Shown here: positions 1 through 64,000 of the stretch, in pieces
Layout: each line of letters begins with the position of its first letter
Position numbering within the stretch: position 1 is the first letter of the stretch
DNA from: Vreelandella sulfidaeris
Lineage (GTDB): Bacteria; Pseudomonadota; Gammaproteobacteria; Pseudomonadales; Halomonadaceae
Length of the DNA: 64,000 nt
Direction of reading: 5' to 3'
Assembly: GCA_007182875.1 (NCBI GenBank)
Contig: AP019514.1
Coordinates: forward strand, 3,782,001-3,846,000
Position numbers and translations under genes: made by a program
The notes under the pieces: model-generated
Seen by the model: the letters and a program-made list of their open reading frames with translations, nothing else
What the model was told of the DNA's origin: nothing
The model's database searches: none

Positions 1-1713
1 TCAGGCCTGAGTGGTTATCTGCATCATCAGTAGCCGCACCAAACACGAACACTTCCCAGGTAAAGGCGTTCGGCAGACGACTTTCACGCCAGCGGATGAT
101 GTGTCCGGCCTCGTTATTGGCACGCGGATTCGCCGCGTTGGTCGGTGCTAGATCGTAACCGACACCCCTTTGCTCCAACCGCTCGCCGTCGTTGGTGAAA
201 GTAGGAGAGGTATCCTCTGCAGTACGTTGGCTATTATTGGTTAGGGTGAGATAGACATCGCCCGACGCGGGATCAACCGACGCCCATTCCGGACGATCCA
301 TCGGCGTTGCACCCAACAAATCCGCTGCATCGCAGGTGTTGATAATGAGACCTGCCACATCGTCGTCGGTTAGCCCTAATGCCGCCGCCAGCGTACGGCC
401 ATCGCGTGTTTGAGCACTGGGCGTTAGCGGCAGCCACTCACCGCTGCCATCTGCATGGAAACGGGCCACATAGAGGGTGCCGTTATCCAAATATTTGTTG
501 CCAATGGCAAGACGATCGTACTCTGCACCTGGGCGGTTGGCATCGGCGGGATCCCAGGCAGCATCAGAAACATATTTATATACGTACTCGTTGCGGGCAT
601 CGTGCCCCGAGTAGTAAACCACCGGCTGCCCTGCTTCCAGTTTGCCTAACCAGCACCCCTTCATGGCGAAAACGCCCTAATGCCGTCCGCTTAACCGCCC
701 CGGCGTCAGTGTAAGGATCGACTTCTACCCGATAACCGAACGTACGTGCTTCGTTACGGTAGTCATTCTCGGCGCGCTCGCCACGTGGAGTAATATCAAA
801 GCGGGCAAATTCCTCATTTTCCTCCGAGATGTCGCCTGCTGAGGTATCCCAGCCATAGCGGCTCTTGTCCGTAGGAATACCGATACGGGCGTCGTCTTGG
901 AAACGCTCGCCACGATTGACGAAAATATCGGGCCAATTCTCTTCACAGGCAATGTAAGTGCCCCAGGGCGTGACCCCGTTGCCGCAGTTATTATTCGTGC
1001 CGCGGGTTTGCATGCCCGTCGGAGAGAACTGCGTTTTTACATAGCTGCTACCCGCGACAGGACCGGAAAGATCCATCACCGTCGCACTCGTGAAGCGGCG
1101 GTTATAGCGCGATCCCGGCACATGCGTCCAGCGGCCGTCAGCATCTTTCTCTACCTCTACCAGAGTGACACCGTGGGCGTTGATCCTCGGTGCGTGACTC
1201 ATCTGCTGGCCGCTTGCCCTCTTCGGTATTGGTGGGGCCGCCTTGGGGCGCCCATAGCGCAGCTTGATCGATATATTCATTGTTCAGTGCCAGCACGAAA
1301 CGACGCGAGGCGTTATCGGCGTCCAGAGCAAAACCAGCCATGCCGTCATGATGCATGCCCACGCTTGCCGCCTGACGCTCAGGGGGTCATAGCCTGATCA
1401 GCCTGCCACGTGTCGCCCACACTTAACGGCGTGCCCCAAGGTACTAACACCTGAGCCACATAGCCTTCCGGTACCACGATCGCATCAGTAAGTGAGCCGC
1501 GCACTGCTTCGAAAGCGAGTGACAGGGTGTTTTCTGCGTGCCACTTGCAGCAAATGCTTGGGCAGCGCCACCAAAGCTGAGCATCGAAGCAGCCGCTACT
1601 CCCAAGCCACCGCGCATCACATCACGTCGGGATACATGACGTGCCAACACCTCGGCGAAAGGTTGATTGCTGCTGTGATTAAACAGGCGATGATCTTCTA
1701 TCTCTTTACTCAT
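1..1713 (-). CDS. phoX: PhoX-family alkaline phosphatase (DUF839), 3' end outside window
   Basis: Secreted phosphatase of the PhoX family, which releases phosphate from organic esters in the periplasm or outside the cell. The N-terminus has a twin-arginine signal (SRRDVMRGGLGVAAASML), fitting Tat export of a folded metalloprotein. Family-typical stretches follow: EGYVAQVLVPWGTPL, DGMAGFALD, NNEY, TPWGTYIACEENW and the C-terminal AGHIIRWRE. The start at 1713 has GGGGAGA upstream; the ATG at 1752 has no comparable site. The last codon read in frame is at 2-4, so the C-terminus lies beyond the left edge. The frame changes near 1530, 1385, 1215 and 640, with good family sequence on both sides each time, so I read this as one gene with indel errors. 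It is transcribed away from the haem locus. Confidence 0.85.
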
Positions 1714-1886
1714 TTTGGTCTCCCCAGATGTTTGTAGGTCACAATTGAACATGAGAAGACACTAAAGAGGCTAAGTGACAGCATGATGACGGGGAGACTG
1801 CAAAGAGATGAATGCCGTTTGTAGTGTTGGACGCTTTTACTATCCAGGCCCTATTGAGGGACGCTCAGAACTCTGCTAAATTAACG

Positions 1887-1905
1887 CTAATAGTTATCAT
1901 TAACA
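1887..1905 (+). promoter_or_regulatory. Fur-like operator upstream of hemP
   Basis: The 19-base stretch CTAATAGTTATCATTAACA resembles, on its reverse strand, the GATAAT-type repeats of a Fur box. It lies about 17 bases before the hemP ribosome binding site (AGGAG at 1908-1912), at the head of the haem uptake genes, where Fur control is usual. It is an imperfect match judged by eye. Confidence 0.45.
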
Positions 1906-1921
1906 TAGGAGTTATTCTCTC

Positions 1922-2092
1922 ATGCAGCTACCCGAGAAGGGCACTGGTCAGGGAGATACGTCATCCTCAATGCCCCGCGAGGTGGAGAGTAGAGAATTAC
2001 TTGGCAGTTCCGGCCAATTGATTATTCACCATGAACAGCGCCGCTACGTTTTACGCCGCACCAAAAGCGGCAAGTTAATACTTAACGCCTGA
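1922..2092 (+). CDS. hemP: Hemin uptake protein HemP
   Basis: A 56-residue protein whose C-terminal half (GQLIIHHEQRRYVLRRTKSG, then KLILNA) matches the short HemP/HmuP family: a compact basic beta-rich segment ending in a KLIL motif. In known cases HemP/HmuP helps expression of haem receptor genes or haem uptake. The start ATG has AGGAG ten bases upstream and a Fur-like site before that. It is the first gene of the haem locus, about 100 bases ahead of the receptor, the usual position. No frameshift. Its small size makes it easy to overlook. Confidence 0.82.
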   Translation: MQLPEKGTGQGDTSSSMPREVESRELLGSSGQLIIHHEQRRYVLRRTKSGKLILNA

Positions 2093-2189
2093 TATAAAAG
2101 TTAGTCACTCATCATAGCCAGCCACCTGCAGCCTTACTGCAACCAGCCAGCGATGTCTTCCACCTCTCTTTGTTGGAACTCTCTGGCAC

Positions 2190-4166
2190 ATGAAACACAC
2201 ACGCACCTTTAGTGGCCTCTTGTTAACGCTACTCCCCTGCTAACCGCCCAAGCAGATGATGCCGAACTTAACCCGGTGACGGTCACCGGCACCCGAGCGC
2301 CTACCGACCCTTTCCCGGGCACCGCTGATTATCGATATTATTGATCGCGATGACGCCGTGCTGGCCACCGCTAGCCGAGTCGAAGATGTGCTTAGCCGCC
2401 AACCAGGCCTGCACGTCGCAGGACAAGGCCGCCGCAATGGCCAAACACTCAGCATGCGCGGTTTTGGCAGCAAAGGGGTGCTGGTGCGCTTGGATGGCGT
2501 TCGTCAGGATATTTCCACCGGCCACATCGGTAACTTCTTCCTCGACCCTGGCTTGATTCAAGAAGTGCAGATAGCGCGCGGTGCGCTCTCAAGCCTATAT
2601 GGCAGCAATGCCATGGGCGGGGTCGTCAGCTTTACCAGCGTGGATGCCGATGACCTGCTTACCCCTGGCGAAGATAGCGGCGTGCGCCTTTCCGTCGGCG
2701 GTGCAACTGCCAGCGATGAGCTGCGGGGAAGCCTTACCGCCTTTGGCCGCCACGATACCAGCAACGGCGAAGTAGACGGCCTGTTTTCAGTCGGCCGCAG
2801 TGAATCTGGCGACATCCGCCGCGCCGGTGGCGATGAAGCAGAAGAGGATGCCACGCTCAATAGCCTGCTGCTAAAAGGTGGTTGGGAGCCAAGCGACGAG
2901 CAACGGGTATTTATGAGCTGGCAGCACTATGACGAAGACGCCACCCAGCCCGCCAACCCACAGCAGCTTTCAACCGATGCCAGCAATCGCTGCGCGACCG
3001 CGATGTTCAGAGCAACAACGTTCAGCTCGGCCACCGCTGGCAGCCCAGTGGGACAACCGAAGTCACTTCACGGCTTACCTTTAGTCAGCAGGATATTGAT
3101 GAGGCTCAGGCCAACCGCACGCTAGAGCGGGTCGGGCTACAAAGTGACGGCTACCACACCATGAATCACGGCTGGCTTACGCAAACGCTGGTATTTGGTG
3201 CCGAACTGGAGCAGGCCCGCCAACGACCGGAGGGTGACGCCAATGGCTTCCCCAACGCCGATATCGATACCCAGGCCGCCTATCTCGACACCACGCTTAC
3301 CGCTGGTCGCTATCTGGCCGATGGCGGTGTAGGGCAGTTTGACGTTTGCCTGGGTGCCCGCTATGACCGTTACGATGCCAGCGGACAAAACGATGCCGAT
3401 AGCGTCCACGATCAAGTGTCTCCGCGTTTTCGTCTCGCTTGGCGGCCCGATGACGCTTTGATGCTATTCTCCGGCTACGCCGAAGCCCTCCGCGCCCCCA
3501 GCCTGTCCGAGCTTTATGCGAACGAGCGCCACTTCGCTGGCTTCTGCGCCGGGCCCTTCTTCTGTACACCAGATAACTATTGGATTCCCAACCCCAGCCT
3601 ATCGCCTGAATCCAGCCACACCTGGGAAAGCGGCGCCGTTTGGCATCAGGGCGATTGGCAACTGCGCGCCAGCTACTTCGATACCCGCGCGGACGACTTT
3701 ATTGATACCCAGGTCGACATTATGGCGGGCACCACCCAAGCGGTGAATGTGCAGCGTGCTCAGCTTTGGGGCTATGACGCCCGGGTTACCTGGCAGCCTA
3801 CCCCCTTCCCATTCCCTAACAAGCTTTGCAGGCCTCTCGGAAGTTTCCGGTAAAGATCGCGACTCTGGCGAACCGCTGGGCAGCCAGACACCCCTGGAAG
3901 CGACCCTAGGCAGTGAATTAACGCTCAATAACGGCAGTGTCCGCCTGGGCTGGCAAGCACGCTTTGCTAAATCCTTCGATAAACAGGGCGACGACGAACG
4001 CCTGCCCGGCTATGGCCTGCACGACGTTCATCTTGCCTGGCAACTCACTCCGGCCGTGGATACCTCGCTGCGCCTAGCCAATCTTGGCGACAAGGTTTGG
4101 TACCGCCCTGACGGCAGCCTGGGCGACGGGCGCAGCCTGTTCGCCACTCTTAACTGGCAGTGGTAA
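2190..4166 (+). CDS. hmuR: TonB-dependent haem receptor
   Basis: Outer-membrane receptor that imports haem using TonB energy. After a signal peptide (MKHTRTFSGLLLTLLP) comes NPVTVTGTRAP, then a plug domain with SRVEDVLSRQPGLHV, SMRGFGSKGVLVRLDGVRQ and GALSSLYGSNAMGGVVSF. The barrel contains LRAPSLSELYA followed by IPNPSLSPE, equivalent to the FRAP and NPNL boxes of haem receptors. The C-terminus FATLNWQW ends in an aromatic residue, as expected for outer-membrane beta-barrels. Length after frame repair is about 660 residues, normal for the family. The frame breaks near 2240, 2320, 2990 and 3815. No exbB, exbD or tonB is in the window. Haem as ligand is inferred from motifs and neighbours; a related siderophore is less likely. 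Confidence 0.85.
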
Positions 4167-8472: not shown

Positions 8473-8979
8473 CTAAACCAGCACCTTATGAGTCGACACC
8501 ACCTGTCGCAGCCCCATAAACGAGCGAATCTGACGCACGCCGGGCAGGTAGAGCAGTTGTTCGGCGTGCAGCCGATTAAAGCTCTGGCTGTCCCGAGTGC
8601 GCACCAGCATAAAGTAGTCAAACTCCCCGGTAACCACGTGGCACTCCATACAGCCTGACACCTTCTGGGCCGCCTCTTCAAAGGCGGCGAAGGATTCCGG
8701 CGTTGAGCGATCCAACACCACGCCAATCAACACCACCATACCTGCATGGAGCTGCTCCGGATCTAAGTGCGCCACCACTCGGCTGATCACCCCGTCACGC
8801 TTGAGCTTTTCCACCCGGCGTAAGCACGCCGCCGGGCTCAAGCTCACCTGCTCTGCCAGTGCCACATTGGAGAGCGTGGCATCTTCCTGAAGCAGTTTAA
8901 GGATACGCCGATCTGTTCGGTCTAGTTCAGCGGCCTGATCATCAGGCTCAGGGCGTGAGCGGGAGGTTTTTGAGCGCAC
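8473..8979 (-). CDS. acdR: Lrp/AsnC-family regulator, likely controlling ACC deaminase
   Basis: A 168-residue regulator. Residues about 20-80 form the Asn/Lrp helix-turn-helix (LDRTDRRILKLLQEDATLSN, then VALAEQVSLSPAACLRRVEKL). The rest is the RAM ligand-binding domain (VVAHLDPEQL, VSGCMECHVVTGEFDYFMLV). It is divergent from acdS with about 210 bases between. In several proteobacteria an Lrp-type AcdR sits in this arrangement and activates acdS. The gene is intact. Naming rests on position as much as sequence; it could be a general amino-acid-sensing Lrp paralogue. Confidence 0.78.
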   Translation of the reverse strand: MRSKTSRSRPEPDDQAAELDRTDRRILKLLQEDATLSNVALAEQVSLSPAACLRRVEKLKRDGVISRVVAHLDPEQLHAGMVVLIGVVLDRSTPESFAAFEEAAQKVSGCMECHVVTGEFDYFMLVRTRDSQSFNRLHAEQLLYLPGVRQIRSFMGLRQVVSTHKVLV

Positions 8980-9188: not shown

Positions 9189-10205
9189 ATGAACCTCGAA
9201 CGCTTCCCACGTTATCCACTCACCTTTGGCCCCTCTCCCATTACGCCGCTCAAGCGGCTAAGCGAACATTTAGGCGGCGAAGTAGAACTCTACGCCAAGC
9301 GCGAAGACTGCAACAGCGGCTTGGCCTTTGGTGGCAATAAGACCCGCAAGCTGGAGTACTTGATTCCCGAAGCGATTGAGCAGGGCTGCGATACGCTGGT
9401 TTCGATTGGCGGCATTCAATCAAACCAGACCCGCCAGGTTGCCGCCGTTGCCGCTCACCTGGGTATGCAGTGCGTATTGGTGCAGGAGAACTGGGTCAAC
9501 TACTCCGATGCAGTTTATGACCGCGTGGGCAATATCGAGATGTCGCGCATCATGGGCGCCGATGTCCGCTTGGATGACGCGGGCTTCGATATCGGCATTC
9601 GCCCCAGTTGGGAGCAGGCGATGGAGGATGTTCGCCAGCGGGGCGGTAAGCCGTTCCCGATTCCCGCTGGCTGCTCCGAGCACCCTTACGGCGGTTTAGG
9701 CTTTGTAGGCTTTGCTGAAGAGGTGCGCCAGCAGGAGAAAGAACTGGGCTTCACGTTTGACTATATCGTGGTGTGCTCGGTCACCGGCAGCACCCAGGCG
9801 GGCATGGTCGTCGGCTTTGCTGCCGATGGCCGCGCCCAGCGCGTGATTGGCATTGATGCCTCTGCAAAACCCGAACAAACCCGCGAACAGATCCTACGCA
9901 TCGCGCGCAATACGGCCGAGCTGGTGGAATTGGAAGGCGGTATTAGCGATGACGATGTCATTTTAGATACCCGCTACGGTGGCCCCGAGTATGGCCTGCC
10001 CAACGAAGGCACGCTGGAAGCTATTCGCCTGTGTGCCCGCCTGGAAGGCGTACTCACCGACCCCGTTTACGAAGGCAAATCCATGCACGGCATGATCGAC
10101 AGGGTGCGCAACGGAGAATTCCCAGCGGGCTCCAAAGTTCTCTACGCCCACCTAGGCGGCGTACCAGCGCTGAATGCATACAGTTTCCTGTTTCGGAATG
10201 GTTGA
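9189..10205 (+). CDS. acdS: 1-aminocyclopropane-1-carboxylate deaminase
   Basis: PLP enzyme that cleaves ACC, the plant ethylene precursor, to 2-oxobutanoate and ammonia in the cytoplasm. At 338 residues it has exactly the family length. Key residues are in place: Lys51 for PLP ([12 protein letters not shown]), Ser78 ([10 protein letters not shown]), Tyr294 and Glu295 ([11 protein letters not shown]), and Leu322 (YAHLGG). Glu295 with Leu322 separates true ACC deaminases from D-cysteine desulfhydrase homologues, so activity is well supported. GCTGGAG precedes the start. The gene is intact, unlike most of its neighbours. An ACC-degrading ability would suit association with plants or algae, or use of ACC as a nitrogen source; that is inference. 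Confidence 0.94.
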
Positions 10206-10258: not shown

Positions 10259-10461
10259 CAGCACATCCCTCAAGCACTTCCAACACTAAAAAAAAGTCGC
10301 GCAAGAAACTTACCAATCAATACCCCCCTTTCTAACCAATCCAGTGCTTTGGCAAACACCTTTCATGGCTTTCAACCCAACCTGTCGATAAGATCCATAG
10401 TGAGCCATCACGAGCTTTCAAATCGTTGTGTTAAATATTAGTTTCCAAAAGGATGGACTCC

Positions 10462-11814
10462 ATGCGCGATGATGAAAAATATACCAACGCAGAGGAGCAG
10501 CTGCTCTATCTTCAAAAACTGCTAGATGAAGAAGATACTTCCGCCCTAAAAGAGCTATTCACTGAGCTCGATATCTTATCGATTGCACGCACACTGGAGT
10601 CTTTTCCCGCTAAAACCCGAGATATGCTTTGGGAGTACATCCCTGAAGAGATAATTGGTGAAGTGCTAGCAGAAGTCGATGAGGGCATACGCGCTGATTA
10701 TGTAGAAGACCTATCGGCCAGCGACGTTGAGCAAATTGTTAAAGGCTTGGATGCTCAAGACGCTGCAGAAGTATTAGATGTTGCTGACAAGGCGATAAAA
10801 ACCAGCGTTTACGCCAGCTTAGATCAGAACATTCGCGCACAGGTTGAGAACCTTCACGCCTATGAAGAAGATGTCGTCGGGCGTTATATGGACCCCGAGA
10901 CGGTCAATGTAAAACAAGGTGTCTCATTAGAAGCGGTACAGCGATATATTCGAATTCACCACCTGCTCGACGAAGAATCGCAGCAAATAATGATCACCGA
11001 CAAAGATAAGCGTTTACTCGGCACACTGACCCTAATTGATTTAATCAAGCAGCCACAAGAAACCGTGGTGGATGATTATATGGATGACCCGTTTACCTTA
11101 AATGATCAAATGAAGGTCAGTGATGCTGCCGTGTTGTTGCGCTCTAAAGAGCTCCCTTTGTGCCGGTATGCGATAGCGATGGGTTATTGGTCGGGCAGCT
11201 AAATGCTGCCGACGTATTAGAAATCACCAAGATGATGCCGACATGACGCTCAAGCATATGTCAGGCGTTAGTGATGAAGAAGAGGTATTCACGCCGATTG
11301 TGCGCAGCGCGAAAAGCCGCGGTATTTGGCTGGGCATTAATTTACTGACCGCTTTTTAGCGGCCTTCGTTATTGGCCAATTCGAAGCGGTATTGGATCAA
11401 ATTGTGGCATTAGCCATCTTGATGCCTGTGGTGGCGAGCATGGGCGGGATCGCGGGAAGCCAAACCCTCACCGTTGTCATACGTGGTTTAGCGCTAGGAC
11501 AACTCGCCGGTAACAATAAACGCTGGCTGTATAATAAAGAGATGTGGGTAGGAATGAGTAATGGCCTAGTGTGGGCACTGGTGGTCGGCGGTATTTCCTA
11601 CCTGTGGTTTAGCGACCCGCTGATTACGCTCGTCATCACCCTAGCGATCTTTATCAATATGAGTCTCGCCAACCTTTCTGGTGTTGTCATTCCTTTGGTA
11701 TTGAAACGCTTACAAATTGACCCTGCCCTCTCGGGCGCGGTAATTCTCACTACGGTCACTGACGTAGTTGGCTTTCTCTCGTTCCTGGGGCTGGCGACGC
11801 TGATTATTTTGTGA
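10462..11814 (+). CDS. mgtE: Magnesium transporter MgtE
   Basis: Mg2+ channel/transporter. The N-terminal acidic helical domain (residues ~1-125) is followed by a CBS pair (RYMDPETVNVKQG, DYMDDPFTLNDQMKVSDAA) and the membrane domain, with AILMPVVASMGGIAGSQT, NMSLANLSGVVIPLVLKRL and ILTTVTDVVGFLSFLGLATL. The last segments form the family's Mg2+ pore. I chose ATG 10462 because AAAAGG lies about nine bases upstream; the ATG at 10453 sits directly on that site. Three junctions, near 11155, 11220 and 11359, separate good MgtE sequence (for example VCDSDGLLVGQLNAADVLEI in another frame). Length of about 450 residues is normal. Confidence 0.88.
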
Positions 11815-13079: not shown

Positions 13080-14579
13080 TTACATGGTCGGCATGGTGAA
13101 GTGGTTGGTCTCTTCACGAATACCGCTGGGCCAGCGCTGGGTGATGGTCTTCATGCGGGTGTAGAAGCGCACACCGTCGGGGCCGTGCATATGCAGCGGG
13201 CCAAACAGCGAGCGCTTCCAGCCACCAAAGCTGTGGAACGCCATGGGCACTGGAATCGGCACGTTCACTCCCACCATGCCCACCTGGATCTGCTCGCAGT
13301 ATTGGCGCGCAGCATCGCCATCTCGGGTAAAGATCGCCGTACCGTTGCCGTATTCATGGGCGTTGATCATGCTGACCGCTTCGTCGAAGCTCGCCACGCG
13401 GGCAATCGCCAGTACCGGGCCAAAGATCTCCTCTGCGTGAATACGCATGCTGGGTGTCACATGGTCAAACAAGCTGCCCCCGATAAAGTAGCCATTGCCT
13501 GCGCCATCAACAGTGGTCTGGCGACCATCGACTACAAGCTCTGCGCCTTCATCCACGCCGACCTGGATATAGCCCGCCACTTTCTCAAGATGCTCGCGGG
13601 TGATCAGCGGCCCCATATCATTGTCCGGGCCATCGACCAGGCCAGGCCCGACCGTCAATTTATCCAGTTCGGCCACCAGTTTTTCACGCAGGCGGTTGGC
13701 GGTCTCTTCACCGACGGGCACCGCCACCGAAATCGCCATGCAGCGCTCACCTGCCGAGCCATAGGCCGCGCCCATCAGGGCGCCCACTGCTTGATCGAGA
13801 TCCGCATCGGGCATGATCACCATATGGTTTTTGGCGCCGCCCAGGGCCTGAACACGCTTGCCATGTTTAGATGCCGTGGCGTAAATGTACTCGGCGATGG
13901 GTGTGGAGCCCACAAAGCTCACCGCTTGGACACGCTCATCGGTAAGCAGCACATCCACCGCTTCTTTATCACCATTGACGACATTGAAGACGCCATCCGG
14001 CAGGCCCGCCTCTGTCAGCAGCTCGGCTAAGCGCAGCGGCGTAGAGGATCTTTTCCGAGGGCTTCATTACAAAGGTGTTACCGCAGGCAAGCGCAATGGG
14101 AAACATCCACATGGGCACCATGGCGGGAAAGTTGAACGGCGAGATACCGGCGCACACGCCCAGCGGCTGCATCATCGAGTAACTATCAACGCCGGTGCCG
14201 ACGTTCATGGAGTGTTCACCCTTTGTAGATGAGGAATGCCGCAGGCAAACTCGACCACTTCCAGGCCACGGGTCACTTCGCCTTTGGCGTCAGAAAACAC
14301 CTTGCCATGCTCGCTGGAGATCAGGCGCGCAAGCTCATCGGTGTGCTCCTCAACCAGCGCTTTAAACTTAAACAAAATACGCGCGCGCTTCAGCGGCGAG
14401 GGTTTTAGACCAGGCGGCAAAGCCTCTTCGGCGATGCGAACTGCTTCGCGGGTTTCATCGGCGGTGGCTAGCGCCACCTGGGCGCTCTGTTCATCGGTGG
14501 CCGGGTTATAAACCGGCGAAGTGCGTTGGCTATTACCGGCCGAGAACTCACCATTAAGATAATGGGGTAACGTCTTCAT
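13080..14579 (-). CDS. iolA: Methylmalonate-semialdehyde dehydrogenase (acylating)
   Basis: CoA-dependent aldehyde dehydrogenase that turns malonic or methylmalonic semialdehyde into acetyl-CoA or propionyl-CoA, the last inositol step. It begins [20 protein letters not shown]. Family features are [32 protein letters not shown], the active-site Cys in [12 protein letters not shown], and EIFGPVLAI. The C-terminus [12 protein letters not shown] is typical of MmsA/IolA. Repaired length is about 500 residues. The frame changes near 14225 and around 14020-14060. It follows iolE by 35 bases and precedes a terminator hairpin. Beside inositol genes, the iolA role is more likely than the valine-pathway mmsA role. 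Confidence 0.88.
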
Positions 14580-14614: not shown

Positions 14615-15516
14615 TTATTTGGCAACGTCGAAACCTGCCTGCTCGGCAAGTTGGCGTAAGTTGCGGTAACCCAGGCGGGCATAGGTCAGCGGGTGGGCGA
14701 CTTCCGGGTCTTGTTCGGCTTCAACCACTAACCAACCCTGGTAGCCCTGTTCGCACAGATGGGTTAAGGCGGGCAGAAAATCCACATCGCCGTCCCCCCG
14801 GCACCGTAAATAGGCCATCTAACACACCGTTTAAAAAGCTTTTGTCGCGGTTGCGCACCGTATCAAGCACTGGGAAACGCAGGTCTTTGCAGTGCACATG
14901 ATGGATACGCTGACTGTAGCGTTTGGCGATGGCGAGCGGGTCACCGCCAGCTCCGCGCAGATGGCCAAAATCAAGCAGTAGCCCCACGCCTTCGCCGGTG
15001 TTGTCCATTAAGCGCTCAACGTCGGCTTGGCTTTCGATCACAGTGCCCAGGTGGTGGTGATATACCAACTGAATGCCCTGGGATTTCAGGTAGTCGCCCA
15101 CTACCTCCAGGCCACTCAGCAGGCGCTGCCACTCTTCCTCGGAGATGGGGACGCTGTGAAAGCGGGCGCTCCTGATCGCCGTGTACACAATGGGTAACTT
15201 CACACAGCACCACTACCTTCGCACCGCATTCCTTGAGCAGGTTCATATGATCCTGAATGGCGTCAATCTCTTCTTCAGGAGCGCGCTCCAGCAAGCGTGC
15301 GGAGTACCAGCCAGAAACGAGTGTCAAATCGTGAGCGCTAAGCACCTGATTCAAGGCATCAGGCGTGCGGGGAAACTTGTTACCTAATTCAAAGCCGCTA
15401 AAGCCTGCCTCGCGGCCTTCTTGCAAGCAGGTTTCCAGCGGTGTTTCACGGCCCAGGCTGGGCAAGTCGTCATTCGTCCAGGTGAGCGGGTTGATGCCTA
15501 AAGTAACCGTTGGCAT
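14615..15516 (-). CDS. iolE: Inosose dehydratase
   Basis: Removes water from 2-keto-myo-inositol to give the diketone that IolD hydrolyses. The IolE N-terminus [16 protein letters not shown] is unmistakable. Further TIM-barrel motifs are [42 protein letters not shown] and [10 protein letters not shown], which supply the metal-binding His, Glu and Asp residues. About 300 residues. The frame changes near 15185 and 14815; the second spot is a C-rich run (GTGCCGGGGGG on the minus strand). It sits between iolD and iolA in the same direction. Confidence 0.9.
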
Positions 15517-15599
15517 AGCGTATTCCTTATGATTGTTTGAGCATTCTCGGCGTTAAGGTGCTTTAACCTATCGCCGACTATCTGATGTACTGCATTCGA

Positions 15600-17445
15600 T
15601 TAGCGGGCCTGGCGCTGCTTAGCCTCACGATAGCCTTGATAGGCTGACTTAACCTGCTCACGCTCGGAAACCTCGGGCACGGCCACTTCCCACCAGGCAC
15701 CGCCTTCTTGGGTGCTGGGTAACGGGTCGGTATCCAGGGCAATCACATAAGTCGAGGTGGCGCTGCGAGCGCGCACTAGTGCTTGCTCTAGCTCCGCGAT
15801 ACCGGTGACCGATTCAGACTCACAGCCCAACGCTTTGGCGTGGGCGGCAAAATCGGTTTTCGGAGCGCCGGCCTCCACAGTGCGGCAATCTTGCAGCAGG
15901 TTGTTGAACCCTGCCCCGCCAGTGGCCTGCTGCAAGCGGTTGATACAGCCATAGCCGCGGTTATCCAACACCACCACAATCAGCTTGTGGCCCAGCATCA
16001 CCGAGGTAGCCAGCTCCGAGTTGTGCATCAGGTAGCTGCCATCGCCCACCATCACCACCACTTCCCGCTCTGGCTTGGCCATCTTGACGCCCAGCCCGCC
16101 CGCAATTTCATAGCCCATGCAGGAGAAGCCGTACTCCACGTGGTAGCTGCCAGGGCCCGAGCATTGCCAGAGCTTATGCAGCTCGCCGGGCAAGCCACCG
16201 GCGGCGCATACCACGGTGGTATCGTTGCCTGCTTGGCGATTAACCGCACCGATCACCTGGGCATCGGTGGGCAGCGCCAGCCCTTGGTCGGCGGTCACGT
16301 TGCGCACTATGTCGGCCCACTCGCGCTTTAGCGTGCCGGTCTGCTCGCGCCATTCATCGCCGCCGCGCCATTCACCCAGCGCCGCGTCGAGTTGACCCAG
16401 CCCGACCAAGGCATCGCAGCTTAGCGGCAGCGCTTGATGCTTCAGGCTGTCGAAGCGGCCAACGTTGAGGGCTATCAGCGTTTTATCGCTGCTTTCAAAC
16501 AGCGCTCGGGAGCCGGTGGTAAAGTCCTGCAACCGCGTGCCCACCGCCAGAATGACATCCGCCTGCTCCGCCAATTGGTTGGCGGCTGCGCTGCCGGTCA
16601 CCCCAATGGCACCCACTGCGCAAGGGTGGCTATCGGCCAACGCGCCTTTGCCGGCCTGGGTTTCGGCTACCGGGATGCCCCGCGCTTTAGCAAACTCTGC
16701 CAGGGCATCGCAGGCAGCGGCGTAATGCACGCCGCCACCGGCGATAATCAGTGGGCGCTTGGCCTGTTGCAGCGCGGCGATGGTTTGGCGAAGCTCGTAA
16801 GCATCCGGTGGCGAGCGGCGAATGCGATGCACCTTGGGAGCAAAAAAGGCCACCGGATAATCGTAGGCAAAGGTTTGCACATCCTGAGGCAGCGCCAGGG
16901 TCGCAGGGCCGCAATGCTCCGGGTCAAGCAGGGTGGCCATCGCCTGGGGCAAACTGGTCAGCAGCTGTTCCGGGCGGTTAATGCGGTCGAAGTAGCGCGA
17001 CACCGGTCGAAAACAGTCGTTGGCGCTAATGGTAGGGTCTCCAAAGTGCTCCACCTGCTGGAGTACCGGGTCGGGTTCGCGGGTGGCAAAGGTGTCCCCC
17101 GGTAGCAGTAGTATCGGCAATCGGTTGGCGTGGGCGAGTGCTGCGGCGGTGACCATATTGGTCGCCCCGGGCCTATCGAGCTGGTCGCGGCCATTAAGCG
17201 CTGGCGATTATTGGCTTTGGCAAAGGCAATCGCCGCGTGGGCCATGGCCTGTTCGTTGTGAGCGCGAAAGGTCGGAAGCGTGTCTTGCACGTGGTAGAGC
17301 GCTTCCCCATTCCGGCCACATTGCCATGACCAAAAATCGCAAACACGCCTTCAAACAGCGACACTTCTTGGCCATCCACCTCTATACGTTGTGCAGCAAG
17401 GTACTTGACCAACGCCTGGGCCATGGTGAGTCGAATGGTGCTCAT
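15600..17445 (-). CDS. iolD: 3D-(3,5/4)-trihydroxycyclohexane-1,2-dione hydrolase
   Basis: Thiamine-diphosphate enzyme that opens the cyclohexane dione to 5-deoxy-glucuronate. It begins MAQALVKYLAAQRIEVDG and has the family's FEGVFAIFGHGNVAGMG. The ThDP-binding part near the C-terminus contains VVMVGDGSYLMHNSELATS with the GDG...N cofactor motif, then VVVLDNRGYGCINRLQ. The middle domain has PLIIAGGGVHYAAACDAL. Repaired length is about 615 residues, the usual size. Only the N-terminal fifth is broken, near 17305 and 17180; the remaining 518 residues are continuous. The start lies one base past the iolC stop with GGAGG inside the iolC end, so the two are coupled. Confidence 0.92.
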
Positions 17446-17446
17446 T

Positions 17447-38698: not shown

Positions 38699-38706
<8 letters not shown>
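37738..38706 (+). CDS. xdhC: XdhC/CoxI-family molybdoenzyme maturation protein
   Basis: Intact 322-residue protein. The N-terminal XdhC domain has TVLKTFGSSPREPGAMLVAC and GEYIGSLSGGCVEEDF. The C-terminal Rossmann domain contains LIIAGISSISSPCALFAQSL, GFEVIVCDPRDEVRKNF, ALTHDPRIDDLAMIEAV, YIGVMGSHQTSQQRKERLL and IGLNLGSKTPAEIALAVLAD. Members sulfurate or insert Moco into xanthine-dehydrogenase-type enzymes. The usual AGGGHV-like turn reads AGISSI here, a small deviation. It overlaps the next gene, a MobA-like nucleotidyltransferase. No molybdoenzyme gene is in the window, so the target lies elsewhere. Confidence 0.85.
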
Positions 38707-41513
<2,807 letters not shown>

Positions 41514-44632: not shown

Positions 44633-46070
44633 CTAATCGATCAGAGGCAACAGCGTATTCAAACTATCTCGGGCATCACCGTAGAACATGCGCGTGTTCT
44701 CTTTGAAGAACAGCGGGTTCTCGATACCCGAGTAGCCGGTGCCCTGGCCGCGTTTACTGACAAACACCTGCTTGGCCTCCCAAACCTTCAACACCGGCAT
44801 GCCGGCGATGGGGCTATTGGGGTCTTCCTCGGCCGCGGGGTTTACGATGTCGTTGGAGCCGATCACGATCACCACGTCGGTGGTGGCGAAATCATCATTG
44901 ATCTCGTCCATCTCCAACACGATGTCGTAAGGCACTTTGGCTTCCGCCAGTAGTACGTTCATGTGCCCTGGCAGACGCCCGGCCACCGGGTGAATGCCAA
45001 AGCGCACCGTCTTACCCGCTGCACGCAGCTTGCGTACCAAGTCACTGACTGCCGTTTGCGCCTGGGCCACCGCCATGCCGTAACCCGGCACGATGATGAC
45101 GCTGTCGGCATCGTTCAGCGCGCTGGCCACGCCACCGGCATCAATCGCCACCTGCTCGCCTTCAATCTCTGCCGCGGGCCCTTGGCTGCCACCAAAGCCG
45201 CCCAAAATGACGTTGATAAAGTTACGGTTCATTGCCTTACACATGATGTGAGAGAATCGCACCCGATGAGCCCACCAGCGCGCCGGTGACAATCAATAGA
45301 TCGTTGGAGAGCGTGAAGCCAATAGCGGCGGCTGCCCAGCCGGAGTAACTGTTCAGCATCGAAACCACCACGGGCATATCGGCACCGCCAATGCCCATGA
45401 TCAGGTGATAACCGATAAAGAATGCCAGAGCCGCCAGCACGATCAGCGTCCAGAAGCCGGCCCCGTTGATGTACAAAATCGCCAACAGCAGTGACAGCAC
45501 CGCCGCCCCGCGTTAAGCATATGCCCACCGGGCAGTTGGCGTGGCTTACCATCGACCTTACCGGCCAGCTTGCCAAAGGCGACCACCGAGCCAGTGAACG
45601 TTACCGCACCGATGAAGATACCCAATACCACTTCAATCTGCAGGAACATCAGTTCATCAGGGGCTTTGGTAGCCACCAGCGCAGCAAAGGCGGAAAACTG
45701 ATCTAACGACGCCTCGGCGGCCCGCGCGGCCATGACTCGGCGACGCTCTAAATCAGCGCTCCAAGCCACAAACACCGCCGCTAAACCCTAAAACTATGTA
45801 GCGCCGCCACTAGCTGGGGCATTTCAGTCATTTCGACCTTGCCCGCCACGTAGGCACCAATACCCGCCCCAATCAGCATCATCGGGATCAGCCACCAGTA
45901 GCCGCCAATACCTGGACCAAGCGCAGTAAAGAACACCGCTATTGCCATGCCCACGATGCCGTACCACACGGCTCGCTTGGCTTTTCCTGGTTGCTCAGAC
46001 CGCCCAGCGACAGAATAAACAGCACGCTCGCCGCGATAGCCGCGGCAGATACGAATCCTTGCTCTAACAT
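44633..46070 (-). CDS. pntB: NAD(P) transhydrogenase, beta subunit
   Basis: Membrane subunit with the NADP(H)-binding domain III of the proton-pumping transhydrogenase. About 479 residues. The start at 46070 reads [20 protein letters not shown]. The membrane half has [20 protein letters not shown] and [20 protein letters not shown]. Domain III has [60 protein letters not shown] and [20 protein letters not shown], the diagnostic NADP-site motifs. Junctions lie near 45985, 45783, 45510 and 45240. The start overlaps the pntA end by seven bases, so the two subunits are made together. Confidence 0.92.
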
Positions 46071-47660
46071 ATCGTCTCTCCGCCGCTTAGGATTTTTTGG
46101 AACATGGCCAGCATCCGGCGTGTCACCAGGAAGCCACCCACGATATTGATTGATGCGATAAGTACTGAGATTGCCGCCAGCACGCTAACCACAATGCTGC
46201 CGGAGCCAATCTGCAGAATCGCCCCCAAGATTATGATGCCTGAAATTGCATTGGTGACCGCCATTAGCGGTGTATGCAACGAGTGACTCACTTTCCAAAT
46301 CACCTGGAAGCCGATAAAGCAGGCCAGCACAAACACAATAAAGTGCTGCATAAACGACGCTGGCGCCACTTGACCCAATAGCAGCATCAATACGCCACCG
46401 ACAGCTAACAGGCCCACCTGGCGCGTGGTCTGTGCTTTAAAGTTGGCCAGCTCAGTGGCCTTTTTCTCTTCTGGCGTCGGCTCTTTCTCTTTTTCTTCGG
46501 TTTTGATGCGCCAATCGCTTTTACTTTGGGCGGCGGCGGCGGGAAGGTAATTTCGCTCTGGTGAGTCACCGTGGCGCCACGAATCACGTCGTCATCCATA
46601 TTATGATTGATCACGCCCTCTTTCTCGGGCGTCAGGTCAGTCAGCATATGGCGGATATTGGTGGCGTAAAGCAACGATGACTGCGTTGCCATGCGTGAGG
46701 GGGAAATCGGTGTAGCCGATCACCACGACGCCGTTATCCGAGACCACGCGCTCATCGGGCTTGGTGAGATCGCAGTTGCCTCCCTTCTCAGCGGCAAGGT
46801 CAATAATTACCGAGCCCGGCTTCATGGCTGCGACCATGTCTTCAAGCCACAGCTTGGGCGCGGGACGGCCTGGAATCAGTGCCGTGGTGATCACAATATC
46901 TACATCCGGCGCCTGCTCGCGGAAACACTCAAGCTGCTTCTCGCGGAACTCAGGGCTCGAGGGCGAGGCATAGCCACCGCTTTCAGATCCATCCTGGCTA
47001 TCCTCGAAATCGAGGAACAGGAACTCGGCGCCCATTGACTCGATCTGCTCGGAGACCTCGGGGCGTACGTCAAAAGCGCGTACAACAGCGCCCAAACTAG
47101 TGGCGGTACCGATGGCCGCCAATCCCGCTACGCCTGCGCCAATCACCAGCACTTTGGCGGGGGCACTTTACCCGCCGCGGTTACCTGGCCGGTAAAGAAA
47201 CGCCCGAAATTATTGCCCGCCTCAATTACTGCGCGGTAGCCGGCAATATTGGCCATCGAGGAGAGCGCGTCCATCTTCTGGGCCCGGGAGATACGCGGGA
47301 CCATATCCATGGCAATAACAGTAGCGCCCTGGGCCTTACACTTCTCCAGCAGCGCTTCGTTTTGCGCTGGCCAGAAAAAAAGAGATCAGTGTTTGACCTT
47401 CGCGCAGCCGCTCTGCTTCTTGCTCGGAGGGCTCGCGGACTTTAATGACCACCTCAGCGTCGCGCCAGAGCGCATCAGCCCTTCCACCACGGTAACGCCC
47501 GCATCACGATAAGTGTCGTCATTAAAGCCCGCCGCTAGGCCGGCACCTGTTTCTACCAAACACTCATGGCCTAACTTTTGGATCTGCTTAGCGCTCTCAG
47601 GGGGTTAACGCAACGCGCGCCTCCCCCTTGAGCACTCTCCTTCGGAGCGCCTATCTTCAT
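46064..47660 (-). CDS. pntA: NAD(P) transhydrogenase, alpha subunit
   Basis: Alpha subunit with the NAD(H)-binding domain I and part of the membrane domain, about 530 residues, fused as in E. coli. It starts [10 protein letters not shown] at 47660 with a [20 protein letters not shown] stretch across frames. Domain I has [60 protein letters not shown] and [20 protein letters not shown]. The last third is membrane: [20 protein letters not shown] and [20 protein letters not shown]. Six or more junctions, near 47610, 47470, 47375, 47165, 46685 and 46500, make it one of the most broken genes here. The linker around 46500 is rich in Pro and Lys. Confidence 0.9.
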
Positions 47661-56297: not shown

Positions 56298-59200
56298 ATG
56301 CAACATAGAGCTTTTCGATTTCTAAGGTGGTGGTTGCTTGTTCCGATCATCATAGTGGCGCTTATTATCGCGGCTGTAGAACTGATGTCGTGGAATTTTT
56401 AAAACCTGCTATCACCGAACGAATTGAGGAAGCAACCGGGCGTACGGTGGCTATCCACGGTGATGTAGAGATTAGCTTATTTCCTCAACCGCAGCTGTCA
56501 CTTCATGAGTTTGAACTCGACAACCCTGAATGGGCCGAGTCACCGCACATGCTTGAAGCACAGCGGATCAGCATTACGCCATCGCTTGGCGATTTGCTGC
56601 AAGGGGACATGGTACTAGAGGACATTGCGGTTACCGGTTCGACCCTGAACTTGGAACAGCGCGCCGAGGGATCAAGTAACTGGACGCTTGGTGACGACGA
56701 ACAAACCAACCAACAAACACAAGCCGAGGAAAGTAACGCCTCACCTGTCGATTTCCGTAACCTCTCAGTGTCTGAATCAGAAGTGCGTTACTGGCCCGCG
56801 GAGACTCAAACCCCACTCGACATCGCCATTTCATCTCTCCAGTTGCAAGCGGATGACGAAGCACTGCATACCCAGGCGACACTCACATTTCAGCAGAAAG
56901 AGTTCGAGCTGGAAGCACAAACGGATCCCATCGCCACCTTCCTCGATGATGCCCAGGCATTCGAGGGCGATGCGTCCCTCAGCTCGGGAGATAGCCTACT
57001 CTCAAGCACTTTCGAGCTTCCCCAAGCGCCAGCATTCGATCATTTTAAAGCGAGCAGCGAGTTAAGCCTTAATAATCTTGCCGAATGGTCACAATGGCTG
57101 GAATTACCTCAGGTCGAGCTGGAAGGCCTTGAAATTGCGGCACAGCTGGAACGCCAAGGCAGTGAATGGCGCTTATTCGACATCGATACCGCCGTCGCCA
57201 ACAGCCAGGTAAGCGGGGAACTGACGATGGATACCGCGGGTGAAACGCCGAGGCTTAGCGGCCAGTTGAACTCGTCACAACTTGATGTGGCAGCATTGCG
57301 CGCGGCCGTGCCTGAGTCGGAGGAAGAAAGGGGATTTTCCTTGCCCGTGTTACCCGATTGGCGCGGAGAAGTTGCTCTCTATTGACCGTTTGATACTGAA
57401 AGAAGCACGGCTACAAAATATCCAAACTCAGCTGCAGCTTGCCGAACATTCGGCTGTGCTTGCCCCTGACCTTTGATATCGCAAATAGCCATGTCGAGGC
57501 AGAGATCAACCTGACCAGTAGCCCTGAAAGGGGTTACCGCAGGCGCGCAAATCAGCCTGCAAGATTTGGATATGACAGAACTGAGTAGCGACCTGCTCGC
57601 TGGCGCCACGCTGGACGCCGACCTTGCCCTTGAGCTTCAGTCACTCGAACAACGCCCGACGTTCGAGTTCGATACGCTGCTTGCCCACCTGCGTATCGAC
57701 AATGCTCGCTTTGCTTATCGCAATGCCGAGACCGAAAGTGACCTGCAGGGAACGCTTGAAACCGACGGAGAAGCAGAGCCGCCGGGCCTGCTTTTCAATG
57801 TGAATGGCAGTTTTCGTGACAAGTCACTGACATTGCAAGCCAGTGGGGCTCCGCTGCCCCGCCTAGTCGACTTGGAGGATATTTCTTTACAACAAGATTA
57901 CCCCTTGATATTGAGGCAACCTCAACCGGCTTGTTCGTTCAGGCGGATACCACCTTGGCTTCTGTTTTAGCACCGCAGACCTTTGAAGCGGATATGCTTC
58001 TGGATGCGGACGACGGGCGTGCTCTCGAAGCCTGGATTGGCTCGGTGTTGCCCCTTTGCCTAACTTTCGACTCGCAGGCCGCTTGAACCGCGACCATCAA
58101 CAGTGGAACGCCACCGGGCTTGAAGGCGAAATAGGCTCGACCAATGTCACCGGCCGACTAGAGGTACTCACTACGGAGCACCCGGTAGTGGATATCGTCG
58201 TCAATGCCGGACGTATCTATCTTTCCGAACTGATCGCCGCTGCGAACCGAGAGCCCGACGATGAAGCCCAGGACGTCTCCCCTTTTGGCACCGTTACGCA
58301 GTTTCGATGGGCAGCTTAATCTACAGGCGGATGCGCTGGTGCTGCCTAACGACTTGGTGTTACCCGAATTCGCGCTAGCAGCAGAGCTTGAGGACGGCAG
58401 GCTACAAGCGGAGCCAATCCAGTTTCGCCTGGGTGAAGGCTCACTTACCGCTAACCTCGCACTGGATGCGACACAAACACCGGCCTCCGGTCAGTTGGAC
58501 GTTGATGTGAACGACCTTTCACTGGCCAGGCTGGGCGACACCTTTAGCCCTATCGAAGACCGGCTGGGCAGAGTATCCGGCGAACTCCACCTGAAATGCG
58601 CGGAACGCTCCCAAGCGACAGACGCGATGATCTGCTGTTACCGTTCATCGGCCAACTTGCTTTCGAACCTTCAGAGCTGCGTTTCAGCGACCCCCGCCGG
58701 TACCGACCTGACACTGACTATGGAGACCCAAGGTACCGACACAGCGTCGCAAACGTTTCACATGCGAGGGGGAAGGCCGCTACGATGGCGCACCAGCCTT
58801 CTTTAATTTGCAAGGCGACCCCCTACTGAATGCTCGCGACCCGAATCGCTCTTACGCGGTGGATCTCGACGCAGATATCGTCGACACGACTATTAGTTTA
58901 AGGGGCACGCTTCAGCGCCCCTGGCGCTGGAAGGGTTGAACCTTTCCCTCGCTATTGAAGGGCCGAACCCGCAACGCCTGAGCCGTCTGCTAGGCATTGC
59001 GCTACCGGAGCTTCCCGCCTACTCGGTATCGGGAGAGCTGGATCTAGAAGGCCAGCGCTGGGTCTTTACCGAGATACAAGGACGCATCGGTGATAGTGAT
59101 CTCAATGGGCGCTTAACACTCAATACCAATGTCAGCCCTCTTCACGTGAGTGGCGAGCTTAGCTCCACACATCTGGATATTGCAGACCTGGGTTTCCTTG

Positions 59201-60130
59201 CCGGGGCTACGCCAGAGGAGATCGACAATAACGACCGTTTCGTATTGCCCGACACCGAGATAATCACCGATGCATGGCAAGGTATATCGGCTGATGTTAG
59301 CTATCAGGGCGATTCTGTGCGGGCGGGCGATGTTCCATTGAGCAACGTGGAGATCGATTTTGTTCTTGAAGATGGGCGCGGACAGTTTGACCCCGTAAGC
59401 TTCGGCTTCGGCGAAGGAAGTGTTGATCTCACACTCGATTTGGATTCCACCACCAATCCTCCCAGCGGCACGATGCAGGTGGAAGTACAGAGAGTCGATC
59501 TCGACGATGCATTACGCAACTGGGATCTGGCGGACGACAGCGTGGGCATCATCGGGGGCGCGGCAAACTTTGGGTAGAAGGTTCTTCGATTGCAGCGCTT
59601 TTGGCCTCCGCAGATGGCGGCGTGGTCCTGCTGATGACCGGCGGAAGACTCGACGCCTTGCTTGTGGAGATGGCGGGGCTCGATGCCGGCCAGACGTTTC
59701 TGAGTTGGGCACGAGGACGCGACCCAATCCCCATTGATTGCGCTTACGCTGATCTACAGGTAAGAGACGGTATTACCCAACTGGACACGTTCTTGGTAGA
59801 CACCGGCGACACCACGTTCACCGCGGGTGGCCAAGTGGACTTGAATACGGAACGCCTAGACGTCAGTATCATCGCCCACCCCACGACCCCAGCCTCTTTG
59901 TAGGTCGCTCGCCGCTTCACCTGGGCGGCACCTTTGCTAATATCGAAACGGGCGTACATCGTGAAGAGCTTATAATGCGTGCAGGCGCAAGCGCGGCACT
60001 TGGCGCCCTTGCCGGTCCGCTCACTGCTCTTTTGCCGCTAGTAGATGTGGGCGCAGGCCCCGACATGGAACACTGCCAAGGCTTGATCAGTCGATCTCGC
60101 GAGGCCATACAAGAGGGAGATGCCGAATAA
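56298..60130 (+). CDS. asmA: AsmA-family envelope protein, unusually long
   Basis: AsmA-like protein, one N-terminal membrane anchor (FRFLRWWLLVPIIIVALIIA) and a large periplasmic region. The AsmA start block is clear: LKPAITERIEEATGRTVAIH, GDVEISLFPQPQLSLHEFEL, ISITPSLGDLLQGDMVLEDI. Many AsmA repeats follow (FDIDTAVANSQVSGELTMDT, GLEGEIGSTNVTGRLEV, FTEIQGRIGDSDLNGRLTLN). The typical end segment GAAAALGALAGPLTALLPLV reads in the last frame, then GPDMEHCQGLI. Relatives are thought to move or arrange phospholipids between membranes. At about 1,270 residues it is longer than E. coli AsmA (617). At least ten frame junctions occur (about 56370, 57385, 57460, 57900, 57965, 58045, 58300, 58590, 58780, 58925, 59570, 59900). 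Confidence 0.8.
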
Positions 60131-60447
60131 TGTGTCAACGCCACGGGTACAATCGTTGGATAGTAGGCGGCCTGCTCTTAATCACATTGCTGGTCGGCTG
60201 TGCCGGCTCGCCGGTTAATGAATCCGCAAGGCTCGAGCAACAAGATTCACTCGAAGCGGTTCAGATCAAAGCTCAACTTCTCGAGGCCCCAGATTTGGCC
60301 GGCTCGGCCATTGACGTGGATTTGGACGGCAACCGAGCCATTCTGAATGGTTTTGTTGAAACCTCGCAGCAGCGCGACCGGGCTGAAGCGATCGCCCAAG
60401 ACCATGATCAGGTGAAAACGGTGGAAAACAACATCACCGTTAAATAA
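60130..60447 (+). CDS. BON-domain lipoprotein
   Basis: Intact 105-residue protein. The N-terminal signal ends in the lipobox LLVGCAGS, so it is a lipoprotein with Cys24 as lipid site. A single BON domain follows (AVQIKAQLLEAPDLAGSAID, DLDGNRAILNGFVETSQQRD, AEAIAQDHDQVKTVENNITV), related to OsmY and Kon-type stress proteins that bind phospholipid surfaces. The start codon overlaps the asmA stop (TAATG), so the two are co-translated. Role in envelope stress is inferred from domain and context. Confidence 0.85.
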   Translation: MCQRHGYNRWIVGGLLLITLLVGCAGSPVNESARLEQQDSLEAVQIKAQLLEAPDLAGSAIDVDLDGNRAILNGFVETSQQRDRAEAIAQDHDQVKTVENNITVK

Positions 60448-62731: not shown

Positions 62732-62777
62732 GCTTATGTGAAACCAAAAATCTTGTAACACAGTACGTTTCATTAGG

Positions 62778-62834
62778 GGCGCCCTGTCATCATCTGAGAT
62801 ACTTAACCTCAAGATGCTGACAGAGGCGCCTTTT
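62778..62834 (+). terminator. Long hairpin terminator after the ATP-grasp gene
   Basis: Extended inverted repeat: GGCGCC-CTGTCA-CATCT-GAG on the left pairs with CTC-AGATG-TGACAG-GGCGCC on the right, with three small bulges or mismatches, followed by TTTTCTTATTT. It starts 47 bases after the gene. Confidence 0.85.
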
Positions 62835-62899
62835 CTTATTTGACAACCATCGCTCTGTCAGCCAAGTGACGTTGCCTTAATTGACTGTTGAGAAATGCG

Positions 62900-63697
62900 A
62901 TGCGTCTACCTTTTCTTAGGCACCTAGTGTTCATGCTCCCCCTTATACTGCTGGCTGGCTGCGAGGAGACACCAACTGGGCGCTCCCAACTGGCGCTGGT
63001 ACCCGAGAACCTGATGGGCCAGATGGGCGAGGACGCTTTCGACCAGATGCGTCGTCACCAGCCAGTATCGAATGATGCGGCCATCAATCAACGAGTACAG
63101 TGCGTAGCCCAGGCGATAGTGACCGCCGCCGAGGCAAGCTACCCGGCCGTCAGCCTGCCCAGCGTATGGGAAGTAGTCGTCTTTGACGATTCTTCACCCA
63201 ATGCCTTCGCCTGCCTGGGGCCGCATCGGTGTGCATACCGGCCTGCTGCGGGTAGCTGAGACACCGGCCCAACTGGCGGCAGTGATCGGCCACGAAGTCG
63301 GCCATGTATTGGCTGAGCATGGCAATGAGCGACTTACCCAGCAACTCGGCATTAAGGCCGTGCTATTGTTGGTCGGTTTTTTTGGGGAAGGTGATTTAGG
63401 GCACCAACAGTTGATGCAGGCCTTGGGCCTCGGCGCTCAGCTCGGCATCAGCCTACCGTTCAGCCGCACCCACGAAGAGGAGGCCGACCTAATGGGTTTG
63501 GCGATCATGGCGCGGGCAGGTTTCGACCCGCAACAAAGCGTGGCACTGTGGCGCAATATGGCAGCCGCCGGTGGTGGTCAGCCCTGAGTTTCTCTACTCA
63601 CCCCGCCCACGGGTCGCGCATCGAGGCATTGCAGCAGGCGATGGAAGAAGCCATGTCGACCTACCGTACCGTCACACCGGCTGTCTGTTCCTGGTAG
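62900..63697 (+). CDS. M48-family metalloprotease, lipoprotein
   Basis: Zinc metalloprotease of about 266 residues, of the periplasmic M48 group. Lipobox LILLAGCEE near residue 20. The zinc motif HEVGH is in AAVIGHEVGHVLAEHGNERL, and the third ligand Glu is in SRTHEEEADLMGLAIMARAG. Other family parts are SQLALVPENLMGQMGEDAFD and RIGVHTGLLRVAETPAQLAA. The tail FLSTHPAHGSRIEALQQAM carries the conserved LSTHP motif. Junctions lie near 63210 and 63582. ATG 62900 (MRLPFLRHLVFML) gives a compact signal; TTG 62888 is an alternative. Likely a housekeeping protease for outer-membrane proteins. Confidence 0.87.
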
Positions 63698-63741
63698 AGC
63701 ATTATCAGCGCCCCTGCCACTAAAAGAGTAGGTTATGTTTT

Positions 63742-64000
63742 ATGCTAAAAGTTGCCATATTGGTTGATGTTCAAAACGTGTATTACACCGTACGCGGAGC
63801 CTACGGCAGAAACTTTGATTACAATAAGTTTTGGGCTCAAGCAACCGCAAATAGAGAAGTGGTGAAAGCGTTTTGCTATGCCATTGATAGAGGTGACCAA
63901 AAGCAGCGAGAGTTTCAAAACATCCTCAGAGCGATTGGCTTTGATGTGAAGCTAAAACCTTTATTCAACGATCTGATGGTTCCGCAAAAGGCGATTGGGA
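63742..64000 (+). CDS. NYN-domain protein (LabA/DUF88 family), cut by window edge
   Basis: Start of a PIN-like NYN-domain protein, a fold with predicted RNase activity. It begins MLKVAILVDVQNVYYTVRG, with the first catalytic Asp in VDVQN, then FCYAIDRGDQKQREFQNILR. The last part reads, after adding one T in the TTT run near 63961, FIQRSDGSAKGDWD, which contains the second acidic cluster of LabA-type proteins. Without that correction the frame gives an unrelated tail. The rest lies beyond position 64000. Function in the cell is unknown. Confidence 0.75.
   Translation, partial: MLKVAILVDVQNVYYTVRGAYGRNFDYNKFWAQATANREVVKAFCYAIDRGDQKQREFQNILRAIGFDVKLKPLFNDLMVPQKAIG

Follow-up and report, generated by a model that had tools for sequence, protein, structure and literature searches.

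Frameshifted genes in a 64-kb stretch of the Vreelandella sulfidaeris Esulfide1 record as consensus errors of a nanopore-only assembly

An insertion/deletion (indel) artefact of R9.4 nanopore sequencing has been described in the Kastor paper (PMC12007338). Short deletions there follow runs of 4-5 equal bases, many genes are frameshifted, and a low completeness recovers after correction; a small incidence of deleted non-repeated bases is also reported. A second case is a sister record, Halomonas axialensis Althf1, assembled with Canu 1.7.1 and nanopolish, for which the authors put the residual errors at 0.11% deletions and 0.24% insertions (PMC6675999). Re-sequencing of Althf1 reduced its coding sequences (CDS) from 5,603 to 3,365 (PMC13049983). 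The stretch considered here, called the window, comprises 64,000 nucleotides of Vreelandella sulfidaeris (assembly GCA_007182875.1, contig AP019514.1, positions 3,782,001 to 3,846,000), in which most genes change frame or contain internal stops. These frameshifts are almost certainly consensus errors of a nanopore-only assembly and not real gene decay.

The source record is the 2019 assembly of Halomonas (now Vreelandella) sulfidaeris Esulfide1 (ATCC BAA-803 = DSM 15722), a deep-sea, salt-loving bacterium, with a published chromosome of 4,207,221 bp and a plasmid of 273,549 bp (PMC6554602). It was sequenced on an R9.4 nanopore flow cell at 98x and processed with Canu, Racon and Nanopolish; short reads are unmentioned, and the depositors themselves acknowledge "uncorrected indels" (PMC6554602). 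The window's source is thus nanopore-derived, without polishing by accurate reads. The artefact is an ordinary one, known to the depositors and already remedied in print by re-sequencing. In its probable course, the basecaller and polisher would call runs, near-runs and dinucleotide tracts at a wrong length, a base would be dropped or, less often, added at such tracts, and each misplaced base would shift the frame of a gene that is presumably whole in the living cell.

The likeness to the Kastor case lies in the short deletions at runs and in the many frameshifted genes with low completeness, recovering after correction. The difference is one of density: the window carries 2.84 indels per kb and the plasmid 5.8, whereas the errors detected in that paper affect less than 0.05% of the genome. 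Althf1 shares the software, but its insertions exceed its deletions, whereas deletions and insertions of one or two bases in this window stand at 95:49.

Broken genes and indels in the window

Open reading frames (ORFs) from 16 genomes of the same genus served as reference proteins and were placed on the window by tblastn; gene references shorter than 60 amino acids (aa), with coverage below 0.5 or with identity below 45% were dropped. The four main relatives (G017, G008, G003 and G004) share most of the gene order and are 73-91% identical in nucleotides, depending on the piece; extra pieces came from further relatives, chiefly for 51-64 kb. A frame change or internal stop is present in 46 of the 56 window genes, in close agreement with an earlier note that, from the letters of the window, had put the figure at about 45 of 55. 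That note had also described the intact genes as mostly short, and breakage does depend on reference length: 1/5 genes below 150 aa, 15/18 at 150-299 aa, 16/19 at 300-449 aa and 14/14 at 450 aa or more. When 64 kb of each of four relatives was passed through the identical pipeline as a control, 3/38, 4/50, 9/46 and 4/38 genes were scored as broken (20/172 as scored).

For the nucleotide comparison, blast pieces of 250 columns or fewer, overlapping lower-scoring pieces and events longer than 2 nt were dropped. Among 286 clusters of one- or two-base events, 144 recur in comparisons with at least two relatives; these alone were counted and give 2.84 per kb over the 50,731 bases that two or more relatives cover, intergenic DNA included. 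They consist of 79 one-base and 16 two-base deletions, and 45 one-base and 4 two-base insertions. Each relative, treated alike against the other three, has 0.15, 0.15, 0.57 or 0.82 indels per kb. The indels are scattered in a nearly random manner (mean 5.65 and variance 7.38 per 2 kb). Gaps in coding DNA relative to G017 number 142 that are not divisible by three and 10 that are, while the same numbers in five comparisons between relatives range between 34 against 18 and 121 against 27; the density of frame-breaking gaps is about 3 per kb for the window and 0.32-1.39 per kb between relatives.

The context of the events was taken from 69 clusters with five identical bases on each side in at least one relative, a set not necessarily contained in the 144. 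It holds 45 one-base deletions, 15 one-base insertions and 9 two-base deletions. Runs of at least 4 hold 16 of the 45 one-base deletions (and 5% of random bases), and another common position is between two equal bases, where the loss creates a run of at least 3 (17/45, versus 9% of random bases). Runs of 2-3 account for 7/45 (40% of random bases) and isolated bases for 5/45 (38%). Thus, the expectation in the earlier note that nearly all junctions would fall in mononucleotide runs was too strong.

The five junctions that it had assigned to runs fared unevenly. At 21088, a single-base shortening of a run (a C-run) is seen against three of four relatives. At 24765, two of four relatives support a shortened run; the other two carry a different base, so that the lost base is ambiguous. 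An extra base is indeed present at 33461-33465, but in 4/4 comparisons it sits among the T's that precede the C-run, which is itself as long as in the two nearest relatives. At 42680, two of the three aligned relatives have an interrupting base within the run that the window lacks, and the third aligns differently. The four relatives have no aligned sequence at 54543, where the surrounding gene (54185-54938) has 2 frame changes.

Selection on the affected genes was assessed from codon changes in 39,532 coding columns, after columns within 10 of a gap had been dropped. The 1628 window-specific changes comprise 1372 synonymous, 255 nonsynonymous and 1 stop; synonymous and nonsynonymous changes are 1504/194 for G003, 493/61 for G008 and 536/67 (plus 1 stop) for G017. 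Because 1372 of the 1628 changes are synonymous, strong purifying selection acts on the window in exactly the reading frames that are broken by its indels. This preponderance bears on the alternative that the segment or the whole genome has undergone real mass pseudogenisation, through host restriction or relaxed selection. Decay of this kind could explain why 46/56 genes are broken, housekeeping and accessory alike, and why the nonsynonymous share is slightly up on the window branch, yet it should also leave purifying selection relaxed and essential genes spared. Neither is seen: selection is retained, and both rpoB and rpoC are broken (in five stretches and two, as described below). The rRNA is affected too, two assemblies of one plasmid DNA disagree, and re-sequencing of the same strain found 17 pseudogenes beside 4,212 CDS (PMC13049983). 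Real decay, which the earlier note had already called very unlikely, is scarcely credible on these grounds.

Errors on the plasmid and elsewhere in the genome

Consensus error as the source of the frameshifts can be examined directly on the plasmid contig, outside the window. Its last 26,979 bases (246,571-273,549) and its first 27,064 align over their full length with 99.2% identity. The match begins at base 1 and finishes at the last base, and since it spans both extremes it resembles the untrimmed overlap of a circular contig; the plasmid looks like a molecule of about 247 kb, rather than 273.5 kb, deposited with a 27-kb circular overlap. Over these 27.1 kb, 129 indels (gap openings) and 23 substitutions separate the two versions, so that what is apparently the same DNA was not read alike twice. 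The chromosome ends show no overlap at E 1e-20 (C1:4187222-4207221 and C1:4147222-4167221 against C1:1-40000).

Halomonas sp. KO116 carries a plasmid 97-98% identical to this one. Across 17,720 shared bases, the two plasmid ends have 99 and 109 indels relative to KO116, of which 58 are common and 41 and 51 are private. If both ends are one stretch of DNA, each private indel must be an error in one of the two versions, irrespective of the true sequence, and those in common are either systematic errors or genuine differences.

In all, 435 indels separate the plasmid from that of KO116 in 75,236 bases (425 deletions and 10 insertions), or 5.8 per kb, a density to be set against the 2.84 per kb of the window only with regard to references of unequal closeness and different filters. 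Five blocks were compared; L053 and L198 repeat one DNA, and the four blocks that remain without the duplicate hold 335 of the 435 indels. The share of runs that are shortened rises with their length, from 1-3% at length 3 to 10-23% at 4, 57-83% at 5 and 39/39 at 6; for runs of at least 7, 7/10 were scored as shortened, with gaps longer than 3 nt uncounted. The window agrees in direction (16/45 deletions in the longer runs, 5% expected). Plasmid deletions in runs shorter than 3 (63 sites in the four blocks, duplicate excluded) show dinucleotide tracts of the AGAG/CTCT type, with AGAG at 21 sites where 5.4 are expected. An exploratory k-mer scan of the same 63 sites for a modified-base motif behind the non-run deletions saw no motif of methylation type.

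Long runs are themselves depleted. A census of 160 kb of the plasmid contig and 444 kb of chromosome gave, for runs of at least 6 per 100 kb (G/C and A/T, respectively), 0 and 2.5 on the plasmid and 9.9 and 41.5 on its own chromosome, compared with 28.8 and 62.8 on the KO116 plasmid and 18.5 and 54.5 on relatives' chromosomes. Given this near-absence of long runs from the plasmid and a methods text that describes mapping to the 4.20-Mb draft (PMC6554602), we infer that Nanopolish acted on the chromosome but not, or less, on the plasmid.

A dependence of deletions on run length would also fit slippage in a living hypermutator, for example one that has lost mismatch repair, in which case the sequenced culture would truly carry the run-length mutations. 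However, a cell whose essential single-copy genes are broken is not viable, and the consensus contains such genes. Moreover, the plasmid contig ends are 129 indels apart, and the re-sequenced strain is normal (PMC13049983). A living hypermutator is scarcely credible.

Consensus errors should reach beyond one segment, and long-ORF coverage indicates that the breakage is genome-wide instead of local. The fraction of bases in stop-to-stop ORFs of at least 300 aa is 0.24 in the window and 0.05-0.56 in 20 stretches of 20 kb from the same genome, whereas 34 stretches from relatives give 0.62-0.86; all 20 own stretches fall below the lowest relative stretch. Essential genes are included. In this genome, rpoB is found in five matched stretches (two overlapping) and rpoC in two, while among 18 other genomes searched rpoB lies in one open frame in 17 (G026 cut short) and rpoC is open in 16; in this search G003 gave no match to rpoB or rpoC and G026 none to rpoC. 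Compared with G008, rpoB has 2 frame changes and 15 stops, rpoC has 1 frame change, and a 149-aa ORF after rpoC, presumably rpsL from its position, has 2. Between G008 and G004, three corresponding ORFs show 0 frame changes and a fourth, unrelated ORF shows 1.

The RNA genes are also affected, subject for 23S to a caveat on length given below. The six 16S copies measure 1526-1531 bases, and the six 23S copies (2884, 2883, 2891, 2886, 2880 and 2881 bases) are all different, as against a single 23S length within each of G006, G021 and G013. Aligned 23S copies display copy-specific run shortenings and lost dinucleotide units; columns in which a single copy deviates include 28 deletions, 10 insertions and 22 substitutions in 23S, and 1, 1 and 9 in 16S. 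Variants common to two or three copies may be real operon differences. A tRNA scan placed Ala/Ile tRNAs in 2/6 rRNA loci, and operon types may differ. Elsewhere in the genus, G059, a single contig of 5.0 Mb with a completeness of 86 and a contamination of 6, combines low completeness with raised contamination, the profile expected of a frameshift-ridden assembly.

Re-sequencing of the type strain

The deposited genome consists of 2 contigs and 4,480,770 bases, with a completeness of 74.6 and a contamination of 5.9. The type strain was re-sequenced in 2026 with PacBio Revio and Illumina, and the published comparison of old with new assembly gives 4,480,770 vs 4,504,718 bp, 7,620 vs 4,212 CDS, 119 vs 17 pseudogenes, a CheckM2 completeness of 82.8 vs 100% and, with one program for both, a contamination of 6.56 vs 1.08 (PMC13049983). 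Re-sequencing was the check that the earlier note had proposed, and its outcome at the level of the genome is a normal gene count. That note's attribution of the frameshifts to uncorrected indel errors is upheld by this outcome together with the nanopore source, the damage to essential genes and rRNA, the intact selection and the plasmid's disagreement with itself.

The contamination values touch on another possibility, that the errors stem from a different platform (PacBio CLR, 454 or Ion Torrent) or from a mixture of strains. Insertions and isolated-base deletions in the window, and the estimate of 5.9% contamination, could be taken in this sense. The published method, however, is R9.4 nanopore (PMC6554602), the run curve of the plasmid is dominated by deletions, and the fall in contamination upon re-sequencing (PMC13049983) points to split markers as its source. 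Another platform or a mixture is very improbable.

Several observations nevertheless weigh against assembly error as a complete account. Intact genes are commoner than a uniform 2.84 indels per kb predicts (10 of 56, with 6.4 expected, sd 2.1). The error profile is uneven, insertions making up 49/144 events in the window and 10/435 on the plasmid. Variation in 23S length is also found in G005 (four lengths, 2886-2903) and G017 (two), so that length variation alone is not specific, and the rRNA column counts come from this genome alone. The ratio of nonsynonymous to synonymous changes is 0.186 on the window branch and 0.124-0.129 in relatives, an excess read here as probably due to substitution errors and misaligned indels. 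The evidence from re-sequencing consists of genome-level figures. Finally, just 119 pseudogenes were annotated in the old assembly, a low number that we take to mean that gene fragments were called as separate CDS.

There is a small chance that one or a few of the 46 broken genes are truly broken in the living strain and masked by errors; 17 pseudogenes beside 4,212 CDS would, if evenly spread, amount to about 0.2 per 64-kb window. As an artefact, the pattern has no biological meaning, and its value is to caution those who work with the old record. Since this record is the sole genome of its species in the collection searched, calls of gene absence, pseudogenes, gene length and pathways made from it are unreliable, and its plasmid apparently exceeds the true length by about 27 kb and contains more errors than the chromosome. 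For any use, the record should give way to the re-sequenced genome (GCA_054072535.1, JBSVSF000000000). The new genome is 24 kb longer, even though the old plasmid seems to have an excess of 27 kb. Small deletions, net of insertions, account for only about 5 kb of that gap at the window rate; some tens of kb may be absent from the old assembly.

Genes of the window

Names were obtained by scanning 45 of the 56 references against protein families, five of them twice. Features of the window, with their state in the deposited sequence, are as follows.

2190..4163, + strand, TonB-dependent heme receptor: 2 frame changes, 3 stops
8476..8979, - strand, Lrp/AsnC-type regulator beside acdS (acdR in the earlier note): intact
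9189..10202, + strand, 1-aminocyclopropane-1-carboxylate (ACC) deaminase, acdS: intact
10453..11811, + strand, magnesium transporter MgtE: broken, 7 stops in the alignment
13083..14579, - strand, methylmalonate-semialdehyde dehydrogenase of the inositol cluster: broken, 4 stops in the alignment
14621..15742, - strand, iolE: 3 frame changes
15609..17445, - strand, iolD: 2 frame changes
17450..19400, - strand, iolC-type kinase/aldolase: 2 frame changes
20311..21197, - strand, sugar-type ABC ATP-binding protein (below curated cut-offs): 1 frame change, with the run shortening at 21088
22384..23331, - strand, periplasmic binding protein of the inositol cluster: intact
29045..30342, - strand, TRAP transporter large permease: 4 frame changes
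33353..34199, + strand, 5-oxoprolinase subunit PxpA: 1 frame change, 1 stop, with the junction at 33461-33465
37738..38703, + strand, XdhC-family protein: intact
39352..41501, - strand, putative catalase-peroxidase (katG in the earlier note): 3 frame changes
44636..46070, - strand, pntB (NCBIfam match just below cut-off): 4 frame changes, 1 stop
46094..47479, - strand, pntA: 2 frame changes, 4 stops
56396..60127, + strand, AsmA-family protein: 5 frame changes, 5 stops
60073..60444, + strand, BON-domain protein: intact

The family scan also named an agmatinase. Where scanned, the gene names of the earlier note (hemP, DUF454, AsnC-type regulator, ACC deaminase, XdhC, pntA, pntB and BON) were right, and its genus, Halomonas, is correct in the older naming. 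The 46 broken genes include katG, pntA and pntB as well as accessory genes, as it had stated, and the longer genes it listed as intact exceptions (ACC deaminase, periplasmic binding protein and XdhC) are intact.

At 8476-10202, the window shows a deep-sea bacterium with an intact ACC deaminase gene and an adjacent Lrp/AsnC-type regulator; the sequence identity of this deaminase to the six best Halomonas/Vreelandella records among the 80 loci listed is 97-99%. The inositol catabolism cluster extends over 11917-25484 and contains iolC, iolD, iolE, the methylmalonate-semialdehyde dehydrogenase, oxidoreductases of the Gfo/Idh/MocA type, an RpiR-type regulator and a sugar-type ABC transporter. The binding protein of this transporter is nearest to the rhizopine type, below the cut-off for that family. 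The cluster is aligned in all four relatives.

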